20,104 bases of DNA from a virus, in the IMG/VR virus record IMGVR_UViG_3300031141_000058, positions 1 to 20,104 of that record. One strand, given 5' to 3'. Of the stretch, positions 8,071 to 19,110 are shown piece by piece (position 1 is the stretch's first letter; every line of letters begins with the position of its first letter). The notes under the pieces were generated by a model. It was not told where the DNA came from and did no database searches. It saw only the letters and a program-made list of their open reading frames with translations. The translations under genes were made by a program, and so were the position numbers.

Positions 8071-9622
8071 CGTTGGCTCTATTGGACTAATCTCCGATAA
8101 ACCCCCACACTCACTCCCGCTCAACGCTTGGTCCGATGGGAAGAATGTGAGATTTTTTGAAGGTGGAGTGGAGAAGGTAACGGGTCACAGGTCAGCGATT
8201 GGTACACCTTCGGTCAGCCCATATTTTCTTTTGCCCGTCCGAAGTGGCAACGAAGCCCTGTGGGTTTACTGCGGGAATAACGCAATCTATGCAACCGCTG
8301 GCGGGACTGGCGGATCGCACAAAAATATCACGCGATCATCAGGGGCTTATTCTGCAAGCACAACGGCGCAAACATGGACCGGGCTTGTCTTTGGCGGCAT
8401 CCCTGTAATAAATAACGGCGTTGATGTCCCACAAATGTGGAACCCCGTTAATTTTTCGTCACCACAATTACTGCAAGACCTTTCCAACTGGCCTTCGACA
8501 CTGCGCTGTAAAAGCATCTCTGGTTTTAAGCAATTCCTTATAGCGATGAATGTTACGGATAACGGCACAAACTATCCGAGGGAGATCAGGTGGAGTCACG
8601 CCAGCAGTCACAATGCAGTTCCTTCAAGCTGGGATTATGCTGACGCGACTTTAGACGCGGGTGCGTATGAACTTGCGGATTCACCCGGTCCTATCTTGCT
8701 TGGCAGACAATTGCGTGACAGCTTTCTGATTTATAAAAACGACTCAATTTGGGGAATGAATTATATTGGTGCGCCTTATATATTCAGGTTTTATGAGGTG
8801 TCAAAACAGTATGGAGCTTTGTCCCGGCATAGCGTAATGGAAGTTGAAGGTGGACACATCGTTTTAGCAAACGGGGATCTGCTCCTTTGCGATGGACAGT
8901 CTGTGAAAAGTCTGATGACCTCAAAGATGCGGCGGTATCTTTTCGATTCTATCGACCCAGATAATTACGGGAATTCCTTTCTCGCTCTTAACCAGTCTAA
9001 AAATGAAATCTGGATTTGCTACCCCACAAACGGCGCGGTATGGCCTGACCGAGCAGTGATTTGGAATTACAAAGAAAATACATTCGGAGTGAGAGACTTG
9101 CCGACAGGAACGACATTCGGAACCAACGCTGTGGTGAATCCGTCCGACACATTGACATGGTCTGTTACTGACACATGGGACGAGGCAATAGACGAAGGGT
9201 GGGATTCTAGAGTATACAACCCAAGTCAAACCCGGCTGGTGTTGTCTAATGTGACATCAACCAAATTATTCCTGTGCGACACAACAAACCGATTTGATTC
9301 TAGTAATGCCATTTCATACATCGAGCGAACCGGGTTGCACTTTGACGCACCTAACATCATCAAGTTGGTGACTCGCGTTCACTTGAACTTCGAGAAGTAT
9401 GGTACTGGTACGGTTGAGGTTTTGGTCGGCAGTCATTCTGCTCCAGAAGGCGCGGTTGAATGGTCAAGCCCCACAACGGTTGACCCTACAACTTCAGTCG
9501 GGAGCAAAGTCGATGTGACGGTGTCAGGGAAGTACCTTGCCATCCGAGTCCAATCTAGCACCAATGTTGGCTGGAAACTTCACAGCTATGATATGCAAAT
9601 AACCGAGATGGGAACTGACTGA
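8057..9622 (+). CDS. Tail nozzle / P22 gp10-like stabilisation protein
   Basis: The start at ATG 8057 is chosen over an in-frame ATG at 8030 because GGAG (8046-8049) lies 7 bases before it and the product then begins MFINDVGSIGLISDKPPH, the usual N-terminus of this group. The 521 residues are beta-rich with repeated W/Y/G-containing strands, e.g. LPLNAWSDGKNVRFFEGG and later LRDSFLIYKNDSIWGMNYIG and IVLANGDLLLCDG. This fits a beta-propeller tail hub/nozzle such as P22 gp10 or T7 gp12, which closes the tail below the adaptor and holds DNA. Length and its position ahead of the ejection proteins agree. The family call is by architecture and remembered pattern, not by search. Confidence 0.6.
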   Translation: MFINDVGSIGLISDKPPHSLPLNAWSDGKNVRFFEGGVEKVTGHRSAIGTPSVSPYFLLPVRSGNEALWVYCGNNAIYATAGGTGGSHKNITRSSGAYSASTTAQTWTGLVFGGIPVINNGVDVPQMWNPVNFSSPQLLQDLSNWPSTLRCKSISGFKQFLIAMNVTDNGTNYPREIRWSHASSHNAVPSSWDYADATLDAGAYELADSPGPILLGRQLRDSFLIYKNDSIWGMNYIGAPYIFRFYEVSKQYGALSRHSVMEVEGGHIVLANGDLLLCDGQSVKSLMTSKMRRYLFDSIDPDNYGNSFLALNQSKNEIWICYPTNGAVWPDRAVIWNYKENTFGVRDLPTGTTFGTNAVVNPSDTLTWSVTDTWDEAIDEGWDSRVYNPSQTRLVLSNVTSTKLFLCDTTNRFDSSNAISYIERTGLHFDAPNIIKLVTRVHLNFEKYGTGTVEVLVGSHSAPEGAVEWSSPTTVDPTTSVGSKVDVTVSGKYLAIRVQSSTNVGWKLHSYDMQITEMGTD

Positions 9623-9888
9623 TGGTTGATTTCTCAAAAGCGCAACAGAACAGATATTTCCCGAAGCGTACTCCATCCGAATATTCGCAGGGCTACATTC
9701 AAGACGAACTTGGGTATATATCATCTGCAATCGAGCAGCAGGCTTTGGGTTTTATTGATGTTGTGAATGTCGCACCAGTCAGACCGAGGCAGGGAATGAT
9801 CCGTTATGCAGACGGTACAAACTGGAATCCCGGTGGGGGTGAAGGAATTTATTATTTTAACGCGGCGGGGTCATGGGTCAAACTTTAG
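9622..9888 (+). CDS. Conserved 88-residue virion-region protein
   Basis: The start overlaps the previous stop (TGATG). A helical N-terminal half (QDELGYISSAIEQQALGF) is followed by a beta-rich end: VNVAPVRPRQGMIRYADGT, then NWNPGGGEGIYYFNAAGSW and VKL. The last part is a short motif common at the ends of podovirus fibre or tail accessory proteins, where it resembles a small carbohydrate- or fibre-docking hairpin. Function is unknown. It overlaps the next gene by 16 bases. Confidence 0.7.
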   Translation: MVDFSKAQQNRYFPKRTPSEYSQGYIQDELGYISSAIEQQALGFIDVVNVAPVRPRQGMIRYADGTNWNPGGGEGIYYFNAAGSWVKL

Positions 9889-10310
9889 AAAAACAAAATG
9901 TTAATGTCAGCGGCGTACCGCAGGAAGCAATAGACGGTATGTGGCCTTTGGTAGTAGATCATATTTTAGTTGGGTTAGATCACGGTCATGGGGAGCTAGA
10001 TGTCGAAGATGTATACAGGGGTTTGAAGAGTAGAGATATGCAATTGTGGACCGCTTTCCAGACTGACGGGGAATGTGTGGCAAGTCTTGTCACTGAGATT
10101 TTCCATTTTGGTAGTAAGAAAGTAATGCGCTTGATTGTCTTGGGTGGGGGCCATATGGCTGACTGGCTCGACTTCCTTGATACACTGAAAGAGTGGGCGA
10201 AGGAAAATGAGTGCGACAGAATAGAAGCGTATTGCAGAGATGGAATGATGCGGCGGCTGGAACATTACGGATATAAAAAACTATATAACTTGTGCGGAGT
10301 TGAGCTATGA
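9873..10310 (+). CDS. GNAT-fold-like protein of podovirus tail/internal region
   Basis: The 145-residue product has the strand/helix order of an acetyltransferase-like fold: CVASLVTEI, then KKVMRLIVLGGGHMADWLDF, then a helix LDTLKEWAKENECDRIEAYC, and RDGMMRRLEHYGYKKLYNLC at the end. The last stretch matches the usual 'RLE--GYK' terminus of GNAT proteins. Many marine podoviruses carry such a protein before the ejection proteins, and T7 gp13 has been compared with it. Whether it binds acetyl-CoA is unclear; the classical Q/R-x-x-G-x-G/A loop is not evident, so it may be structural only. It overlaps the next gene by ATGA. Confidence 0.65.
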   Translation: MGQTLEKQNVNVSGVPQEAIDGMWPLVVDHILVGLDHGHGELDVEDVYRGLKSRDMQLWTAFQTDGECVASLVTEIFHFGSKKVMRLIVLGGGHMADWLDFLDTLKEWAKENECDRIEAYCRDGMMRRLEHYGYKKLYNLCGVEL

Positions 10311-16345: not shown

Positions 16346-16537
16346 CTAAAAACTAGCACAAACTCGTAAGTACCCCGTGCTTGCACCCGCCCCTATCGCT
16401 CTCGGAGCTTGACCCGGATCGTTATAAAATAAAACTGCTCGTCTACACTCTTGCAGATCGTGGTCGAACAATTCGTTGAAATTCGTAACACTCTTGTACG
16501 GAGTTTTCCCTCTAATGTTGCCTGAATTTAGGCTCCC
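16346..16537 (-). other. Open -1 frame that would extend the repressor by 63 residues
   Basis: From the repressor's codon pair AAA-AAG, a one-base backward slip enters a frame that stays open for 63 codons, to TAG at 16348-16346. Its product begins GSLNSGNIRGKTPYK and contains NFNELFDHDLQECRRAVLF and RAIGAGASTGYLRVCASF. This is a protein-like composition with no start codon except an internal TTG lacking a ribosome-binding site. The slip site is A_AAA_AAG (16543-16537, minus strand), the heptamer used by E. coli dnaX. Either programmed frameshifting joins it to the repressor (205 residues in all) or an old indel cut it off. I do not recognise the extension. Confidence 0.4.
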
Positions 16538-16962
16538 TTTTTTACCACTAGAGGTATGGCTTTTTTTTCAGAAAGTTCGTTTTCTAGACTGTTTATTTTC
16601 TTCATCAATAATATTATTTCAGCCTGTGCTTCAATTAGCTGTTTAGTGAACATCCGTTCTGTCTCCCCTTCTAGGTTTGCTTGTGAACTTTCTTTTAGTC
16701 CTTCTGCTATTTCCTCAGTAAAGATCATATCTTCTTTTTGGTAAGCGATCCTTAATTCTACTGCAATTTGGCGCAATAGTGTCTCCCCATTCTTGGGAGG
16801 TCTATCCCCAGTTTCCCACCCTGACACAGTTCTGACGCTAACTTGCATCAACTCGCCAAGTTCTGACTGAGTTAAGCCATTATCTTGGCGCATAATGGCA
16901 ATTTGACGAGCTATAGTTTTTTTATTCATATACTTATTGACATCGAAGTGACTTTCTGACAC
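16528..16962 (-). CDS. Cro/C1-type HTH transcriptional repressor
   Basis: The 144-residue product has an XRE-family helix-turn-helix at about residues 16-70. IARQIAIMRQDNGLTQSELG leads into ELMQVSVRTVSGWETGDRPP, with the classic TQ-ELG (helix 2) and V-VRTVSGWE (recognition helix). The C-terminal half (about residues 75-135) is charged and helical, ending LIEAQAEIILLMKKINSLEN, likely a dimerising coiled coil. The frame can begin with GTG at 16962 or with ATG at 16929 (MNKKTIARQ). Neither has a good ribosome-binding site, and the ATG gives the usual HTH N-terminus. A palindromic operator candidate lies just upstream. It is the main minus-strand gene, set between late and early blocks, as expected of a phage repressor, but no integrase is in view. 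Confidence 0.85.
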   Translation of the reverse strand: MSESHFDVNKYMNKKTIARQIAIMRQDNGLTQSELGELMQVSVRTVSGWETGDRPPKNGETLLRQIAVELRIAYQKEDMIFTEEIAEGLKESSQANLEGETERMFTKQLIEAQAEIILLMKKINSLENELSEKKAIPLVVKKGA

Positions 16963-17829: not shown

Positions 17830-18106
17830 CGCAGATTTCGAGACATTGCGGGACAAAATTGAGTTGCTTCGTAAAACCTTCAAAGAAGGTGTGGACGATT
17901 TACCTGATGACTTGAATACGCCAGAGTTTGAGCGTGATGCCCACAAAGTTAAGTGGTTTTCCGAAATGATTTATTCGCTGGGATGTGACATTTCTGAAAT
18001 TGGCGAAGACATGATGGTGGATAAACAGGTGGGCGAAAACTATGAAGAAAGATATGTGGAAATGAACGGTCATAGAGAGTTTGAAGGTTATGGGGTGGGC
18101 CAGTGA
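17804..18106 (+). CDS. Small acidic early protein, unknown
   Basis: A 100-residue acidic, mainly helical protein beginning METINDKFSADFETLRDKIE, with a central FERDAHKVKWFSEMIYSLGC and a C-terminal EFEGYGVGQ. No motif is recognised. GGAG precedes the ATG at a normal distance, the start lies inside the previous gene, and the stop overlaps the next start (GTGA), so it is part of a tightly coupled early operon. Acidic early phage proteins often act as inhibitors of host factors; that is only a possibility here. Confidence 0.7.
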   Translation: METINDKFSADFETLRDKIELLRKTFKEGVDDLPDDLNTPEFERDAHKVKWFSEMIYSLGCDISEIGEDMMVDKQVGENYEERYVEMNGHREFEGYGVGQ

Positions 18107-18276
18107 GCGACATGGCAGTAGCGTGGTTGTTGATCGGCGGCGCGGTTTGGTCTGTGACAATCGGCGCGGTACTTGTTAGTTGCTGGGCGGAAGACTGTAC
18201 CGAGGCTGAATACGAAGCCCTTGAAAATGACCAGTGGCAGCGTGACCACGATGAGATTGAAGCTTTAGATCATTAG
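18103..18276 (+). CDS. 57-residue single-TM protein with acidic tail
   Basis: GTG 18103 overlaps the previous stop (GTGA); ATG 18112 is an alternative. The product, MSDMAVAWLLIGGAVWSVTI followed by GAVLVSCWAE, has one membrane helix (about residues 5-27). An acidic C-terminal tail with two Cys and many Glu/Asp ends EIEALDH. It is probably an inner-membrane protein with the tail on one side; the family is unknown. Its stop codon TAG (18274-18276) lies within stem I of the hammerhead ribozyme that follows, so translation to the end of this gene may affect ribozyme folding. Confidence 0.6.
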   Translation: MSDMAVAWLLIGGAVWSVTIGAVLVSCWAEDCTEAEYEALENDQWQRDHDEIEALDH

Positions 18277-18368
18277 CCCTCTGATGAGCCTGTGAAATCC
18301 GGGCGAAACAGCGGGTGAGAATAGCTTGTACAGGGGGGCAATTCTCATTCGCTGTCAGGAATAATTAT
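18269..18368 (+). ncRNA. Type I hammerhead self-cleaving ribozyme
   Basis: All conserved core bases are present in order: CUGAUGA (18281-18287), stem II, GAA (18305-18307), stem III, then the cleavage triplet GUC (18354-18356). Stem II is GCCUG/CGGGC (18288-18292 with 18300-18304) with a 7-base loop. Stem III is 15 continuous pairs, 18308-18322 with 18341-18355, including the required A15.1-U16.1 pair (18308-18355) and two G-U pairs, with an 18-base loop. Stem I pairs 18278-18280 with 18357-18359. After a 2x2 internal loop 18272-18275 pairs with 18362-18365, leaving both RNA ends in stem I (type I). The internal loop is where a loop I-loop II contact would be expected. Cleavage would fall between 18356 and 18357, leaving a 34-base leader before the annealing-protein gene. 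Confidence 0.92.
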
Positions 18369-18390
18369 AAAAACCACTGGGAGAAATAAA

Positions 18391-19110
18391 ATGGCAGATA
18401 AAAAAGAAAATAAGGGGATTTTTGAGAATCTGTATTCGATTAACGTGGGCGAGCATTTAGACCTGAAGGGCGGGTTCAAGTATTTAAAGTGGTCAGTCGC
18501 ATTTCGCATTTTGTTGCAGCATTATCCCAAGTCTCATTGGAGAGTTTTGAAGCAGGACGAAATTGACATTGGTGTCGATCTTTCATCTGTCAAGGGGTCC
18601 ATTGTAGCGACAGAAATCACAGTTGTGGGACACGATGAAACCGTTACTAGGACTGAGTTTCTGCCCGTCTTGGATTATAGGAACAATATATTGCCGGGGC
18701 CGTCAACGATGGACATTAACAGTTCTATAAAGCGGTGCTATGTGAAGACTCTTGCTCATCTAGGTCTTGGAATGAAGGTTTTTGAGGGGGCAGACTACCC
18801 TGAGGATTGCACGGAGCCGAATGACGCAATCGTTGCCCCTGCTGTAAATGCAGCCATTGACCGCATTTTGGATCGACCCGTTGTCCATGACGATATTGAT
18901 GACTTTATCGATGAGGTTGGTGAGCGCATAAACCACGAAGACCAAGAAGCATTGATGGAACTGATGGACAGTTTAGGGCTGGGAGTCCCTGACGTTATGG
19001 AAACTATAAAAGAGCAAGGTTACACCCGCTCCAGCGAAATACCTAAAGGCAAACTTGAGGAATTTAAAGAAGCACTGAAGGCAAAGGGGGTGGCAAATGT
19101 TGCAAGTTAA
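18391..19110 (+). CDS. Sak3-type single-strand annealing protein (DUF1071)
   Basis: The 239-residue product has the conserved layout of the Sak3/DUF1071 group of phage annealing proteins. FKYLKWSVAFRILLQHYPKS lies near the N-terminus (the usual 'YLSWA-AW--' region). A central beta-rich part has VATEITVVGHDETVTRTEF and LPVLDYRN, and the diagnostic TMDINSSIKRCYVKTLAHLG and LGMKVFEGADYPED cover residues about 110-144. The acidic C-terminus is variable. Such proteins anneal complementary single strands in phage recombination, with an exonuclease or SSB partner. GGGAG lies about 9 bases before the ATG. The mRNA 5' end for this gene may be made by the hammerhead cut at 18356/18357. It overlaps the next gene by 14 bases. 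Confidence 0.8.
   Translation: MADKKENKGIFENLYSINVGEHLDLKGGFKYLKWSVAFRILLQHYPKSHWRVLKQDEIDIGVDLSSVKGSIVATEITVVGHDETVTRTEFLPVLDYRNNILPGPSTMDINSSIKRCYVKTLAHLGLGMKVFEGADYPEDCTEPNDAIVAPAVNAAIDRILDRPVVHDDIDDFIDEVGERINHEDQEALMELMDSLGLGVPDVMETIKEQGYTRSSEIPKGKLEEFKEALKAKGVANVAS

Follow-up and report, generated by a model that had tools for sequence, protein, structure and literature searches.

Hammerhead ribozymes have been reported at phage gene boundaries before. Clustered hammerheads flank prophage genes, and activity has been shown for some of them both in vitro and in E. coli (Perreault et al. 2011, PMC3088659); the same work proposed that long phage RNAs are processed into operon- or gene-length mRNAs. 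In haloviruses HF1/HF2, a transcript 5' end was mapped within 3 nt of the cut of the HHphage ribozyme, ahead of an early helicase gene (PMC3088659). A 2017 review describes a persistent link of prokaryotic hammerheads to phages and treats their roles as an open question (PMC6155905). Hammerheads before phage early genes are already published, and the element that we describe here is a well-supported further example.

The stretch that we analysed (the window) is the whole of IMG/VR record IMGVR_UViG_3300031141_000058, 20104 bases. The early region occupies its right part and begins with a divergent repressor on the minus strand, followed by a plus-strand operon in the order HU, Cys-rich ORF, two small ORFs, hammerhead, Sak, exonuclease, SSB-like ORF and replication ORF. 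As the earlier note had proposed, the hammerhead sets apart the part with HU and small ORFs from the part with Sak and the exonuclease. The features of the region are as follows.

16528-16962, minus strand: divergent repressor of the early region
5' part of the operon, plus strand: HU (PF00216, E 1.5e-22)
18103-18276, plus strand: 57-aa ORF upstream of the hammerhead, ending within stem I, without family match
18270-18287, plus strand: competing hairpin UCAUUAG-CCCU-CUGAUGA, which pairs with the core in the predicted fold
18272-18280, plus strand: stem I, 5' strand (inner 18278-18280, 3 bp; internal loop 18276-18277; outer 18272-18275, 4 bp), from sequence and descriptor
18281-18287, plus strand: catalytic core C3-A9, CUGAUGA, from sequence and covariance-model match
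18288-18304, plus strand: stem II (18288-18292 with 18300-18304, 5 bp, one G-U; loop UGAAAUC)
18305-18307, plus strand: core GAA (G12 A13 A14), from sequence
18308-18355, plus strand: stem III and apical loop (18308-18322 with 18341-18355, 15 unbroken pairs, two G-U; A15.1-U16.1 closes the stem)
18356, plus strand: C17 of the GUC site, with the predicted cut at 18356^18357, from position in the motif
18357-18365, plus strand: stem I, 3' strand (18357-18359; internal loop 18360-18361; outer 18362-18365)
18357-18390, plus strand: predicted leader of the downstream message, 34 nt to ATG 18391, with GGGAG at 18379-18383, 7 nt before the start
18391-19110, plus strand: Sak single-strand annealing protein, first gene past the cut (PF06378, E 1.6e-27; phrog_659, E 1.5e-31)
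downstream of Sak, plus strand: exonuclease (weak match to phrog_10477, E 1.1e-4)
plus strand: SSB-like ORF, named from position and ending, without family match
after the SSB-like ORF, plus strand: replication ORF

Reading the sequence and running a script both recovered the complete type I hammerhead claimed in the earlier note, at 18272-18365 on the plus strand, with its core, 5-bp stem II, 15-bp stem III and GUC site. All of C3 U4 G5 A6 N7 G8 A9, G12 A13 A14, A15.1-U16.1 and H17 are present, and three stems surround the core, which opens at stem I. Stem I consists of a 3-bp inner helix, a 2x2 internal loop and a 4-bp outer helix, and the UAG stop codon (18274-18276) of the upstream ORF falls inside it, at -4. 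Among the 119 type I matches listed, this inner stem I is the shortest and this stem III the longest.

Chance occurrence was expected to be very small, and simulation bears this out: 20.1 Mb simulated with a first-order model yielded 10 matches to a loose type I descriptor, none of them with a stem III of at least 8 bp, and both strands of the window yielded one, namely the hammerhead itself. A proposed Rfam search, by contrast, came back negative, with no hammerhead match in the window at gathering score. This score proved uninformative as a test, since it was equally silent at five loci where phage hammerheads are plain to see, two of which reached 26-37 bits, below the cut-off, in a relaxed search; at relaxed E-value only Hammerhead_3 matched the window (18.1 bits). 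Clear phage type I hammerheads in L005, L011, L012, L020 and L021 fall below the Rfam 15 gathering scores, and phage hammerheads are for this reason probably under-annotated by Rfam-based pipelines.

Because Rfam gathering scores were silent on obvious phage hammerheads, we trained our own covariance model on 64 other phage type I hammerheads from IMG/VR, leaving the window copy out. In this alignment 98.7% of cells are paired, and the covariation score is 0.862, versus 0.160 in shuffles. Run with filters off, the model scored the window copy at 21.1 bits (E 2.4e-5, 801 bases searched), and the runner-up site reached 7.8 bits; run with default filters on four sources, it did not report the window copy, which is an outlier for this model because its stem III is long and its stem I short. 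On a negative background of more distant MCP/TerL relatives (789 kb), the model gave one match (12.8 bits, E 6.7), and we saw no convincing hammerhead in these more distant relatives, many of whose contigs stop short of the early region. The relaxed descriptor produced 9 false positives in 15 Mb of simulated sequence, with scores of 10-18, and given this rate we set aside weak matches in L157, L170, L175 and L184.

A DNA similarity search in phage records with the window gave no match, and Sak as query matched only the same phage (99.9% identical, 7.7 kb). This second contig of the phage, IMGVR_UViG_3300031655_000026 (L001/G001, 32195 bases), is 99.9% identical over the compared 7.7 kb, and its hammerhead region is identical to that of the window. 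The phage carries another type I hammerhead on the opposite strand (G001 9869; L224 9869-9906), scored by the phage model at 46.9 bits (E 5.7e-11). It lies between two small ORFs, one stopping at 9864 and the next starting at 9937, in a geometry like that of the window copy (stop at -4, predicted leader of 30 nt). The strict descriptor misses it on account of one extra U before stem II; the relaxed descriptor, like the phage model, recovers it. An extra U between A9 and stem II (CUGANGAU plus stem) occurs in three hammerheads (L224 9869, L230 4979 and L101 9873), and the text of PMC3088659 names core insertions after A6 and A13, not at this place. Near-identical copies of TATATATACCTATAGATGTATATTA..TGGACAACACG, which may be a repeated promoter, stand at L224 9480-9540 and 10920-10990, ahead of two genes that share their strand with the second hammerhead.

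One relative shares the junction. L227 (IMGVR_UViG_3300031167_000001) resembles the window operon in its exonuclease (49%), SSB-like (45%), Lin1244-like (55%) and VRR-NUC-type (69%; named by inspection only) proteins, and aligning the exonuclease for further relatives again returned L227 only. In the equivalent gap it has a hammerhead with its core at 8226 (GACCU, CUGAAGA, UUAGCUGAGAUGCUAU, GAA, AUCCGUUUGUG...CACAAGCGGAU A^AGGUU), and here the minimum free energy (MFE) structure is the hammerhead fold (z -3.43). Its stems II and III have other sequences than those of the window and still pair, which is the compensatory pairing that the earlier note had asked of homologous phages, seen here in the only relative found with this junction. 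In L227, stem II opens with a U-U pair, which Perreault et al. discuss as a natural variant (PMC3088659). The two hammerheads presumably descend from one ancestor, judging from their position and a shared AGNCCUCUGANGA segment. The gene behind the L227 hammerhead encodes an ERF-family annealing protein (PF04404, E 9.5e-10) and not Sak; the junction has therefore been retained while the annealing-protein family differs. In L230, another relative (TerL 69%), a hammerhead-like RNA lies between other genes, closely preceded by a stop and followed by a 34-nt leader; its fold score by itself is not significant.

Loop II of the window copy, UGAAAU, resembles the RF00008 consensus. Hammerheads with a UGARAU loop II (window, L227 and one L085 copy) have UAA in the stem I 3' strand in 3 of 3 cases, versus 6 of 121 others, a pattern that was noticed before it was counted; this association may point to a type III-like contact between stem I and loop II. 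Both phages have a G-rich apex on stem III (window 18323-18340, GGGGGG; L227 8263-8286, GGGGG), and the stem sequences themselves differ.

We wondered how typical the placement of the window hammerhead is, and compared it with a set collected by pattern scan and descriptor, which holds at least 119 distinct type I and at least 47 type III hammerheads, the window included, and is biased to the chosen stem II letters. Among the type I matches listed, the next start preceded by a Shine-Dalgarno (SD) sequence lies a median of 30.5 nt past the cut (interquartile range 25-44), and upstream stops cluster from -12 to +4 relative to C3, 18 of them being the UGA of CUGA. Both features together, a stop at the 5' edge of the core and an SD-preceded start 20-45 nt past the cut, are found in 46% of the 104 listed IMG/VR type I matches with enough flank; random sites taken from those contigs show them in 0.3% of cases. 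A start within 300 nt after the cut is on the same strand in 86 of the 119 type I matches listed and on the other strand in 13. Tight packing of phage genes may explain part of this geometry. The genes downstream of listed hammerheads are varied and mostly without assigned function; those with names include a RecE-like exonuclease, anti-restriction proteins and MazG-like pyrophosphatases. Some contigs (L053, L137, L085, L012/L021, L060 and L041) carry four to six hammerheads packed into a few kb, each ahead of a small ORF.

The window fits this pattern, with same-strand genes on both sides, its stop at -4 and a 34-nt leader. Both the fixed 34-nt leader from the predicted cut to ATG 18391 and the position of the stop codon in stem I, pointed out in the earlier note, turn out to be typical of phage type I hammerheads, in which leaders of about 30 nt are common.

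These data suggest that the type I hammerhead probably punctuates a single early operon of the phage at the point where its two blocks meet. RNA polymerase, coming from an upstream promoter, would transcribe the HU gene, the Cys-rich ORF and both small ORFs and continue into the Sak, exonuclease, SSB-like and replication genes, and once the 3' strand of stem I is transcribed the ribozyme would cut after 18356. The upstream message would then end just past stem-loop III with a 2',3'-cyclic phosphate, and the recombination/replication message would begin with a 5'-OH and an A-rich 34-nt leader bearing a free ribosome site, with a likely effect on expression. We favour punctuation because the full core and stems are present, the chance estimate is tiny and an independent model matches at 21.1 bits; because L227 has a hammerhead in the same place, the phage has a second one and the stop/start geometry is shared; and because phage operon RNA cleavage is published (PMC3088659) and the junction has no promoter-like site on the plus strand in a scan for the sigma-70 consensus, which the host may not share. 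We also considered an intrinsic terminator at stem III and rejected it, since reading the sequence 3' of the stem revealed no U-run. Punctuation is opposed by the 3-bp inner stem I, the concealment of the core in the predicted fold, the sub-threshold Rfam score and the miss with default filters.

The predicted fold bears on two alternatives. The hammerhead region has a fold z-score of -2.56 to -3.26. In the unconstrained fold the core pairs with UCAUUAG at 18270-18276 and is hidden, and the hammerhead fold lies about 4 kcal/mol above the ensemble (rank 109 of 119 among matches listed), as computed by a program without core or loop-loop stabilisation. Removing the 5' arm in silico frees the core from this competing hairpin, to which the earlier note makes no reference. 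It is possible, if unlikely, that the junction works as a switch timed by translation of the 57-aa ORF, in which a ribosome terminating at the stem I UAG would block or free the ribozyme. The stop codon inside stem I, the clustering of stops at the core edge in phage hammerheads and the release of the core on removal of the 5' arm would all fit such timing; however, close gene packing alone would put the stop there, and the competing hairpin is neither exceptional nor part of the L227 MFE. Competing hairpins of similar strength occur in other phage hammerheads, among which the window ranks 13 of 124, and with the hairpin common in the set and absent from the L227 MFE we rejected it as a general, conserved switch. 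We regard as possible, if unlikely, the broader idea that type I hammerheads serve phages as a stock component of gene junctions, with a stop in stem I or the core and a leader of about 30 nt, kept while neighbours swap (Sak versus ERF) and timed by the ribosome terminating in stem I.

It is quite improbable that the hammerhead is decaying or very slow, once active and now left with little activity in the cell by the loss of two stem I pairs and by the competing hairpin. At the two lost pairs the window stem I has the mismatches C-A and G-A, L230 the pairs C-G and G-U, and L227 the pairs A-U and G-U; these mismatches, the 3-bp inner helix and the sequestered core are what such decay might leave behind. 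However, every core base and the 15-bp stem III are intact, the hammerhead is identical in both contigs of the phage, a 4-bp outer stem I can still form, and competing hairpins are found in other phage hammerheads as well. That there is no ribozyme, only a chance core beside a hairpin of the transcript (a terminator, for instance, or a stem processed by an RNase), as the lack of an Rfam type I match might suggest, is extremely improbable in view of the chance estimate, the independent covariance-model match, the same-place hammerhead in L227, the second hammerhead of the phage and the absence of a U-run after the stem.

With one hammerhead at one clear junction, the operon offers a well-defined test case for hammerhead role, and the value of the case lies in a relative with the same junction and another gene behind it, and in a stop/start geometry drawn from about 100 listed examples. 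We found no description in the open-access literature of this geometry or of a junction retained with a different annealing protein. Like the prophage clusters (PMC3088659), the window phage has hammerheads between phage operon genes; unlike them, it has a single copy per operon, one per strand, ahead of an annealing-protein gene, and its activity is a prediction. It shares with HHphage of HF1/HF2 (PMC3088659) a position just 5' of the first gene in an early replication block, but HHphage contains an insertion of 2 nt in its core, precedes the start by 13 nt and belongs to viruses of haloarchaeal hosts, whereas the window combines a consensus core with a leader of 34 nt. The window hammerhead has the core and stem layout of Rfam RF00163 (Hammerhead_1) and RF00008 (Hammerhead_3), yet scores below both gathering cut-offs, and it is type I by topology, open at stem I, yet carries a loop II of the type III kind (RF00008).
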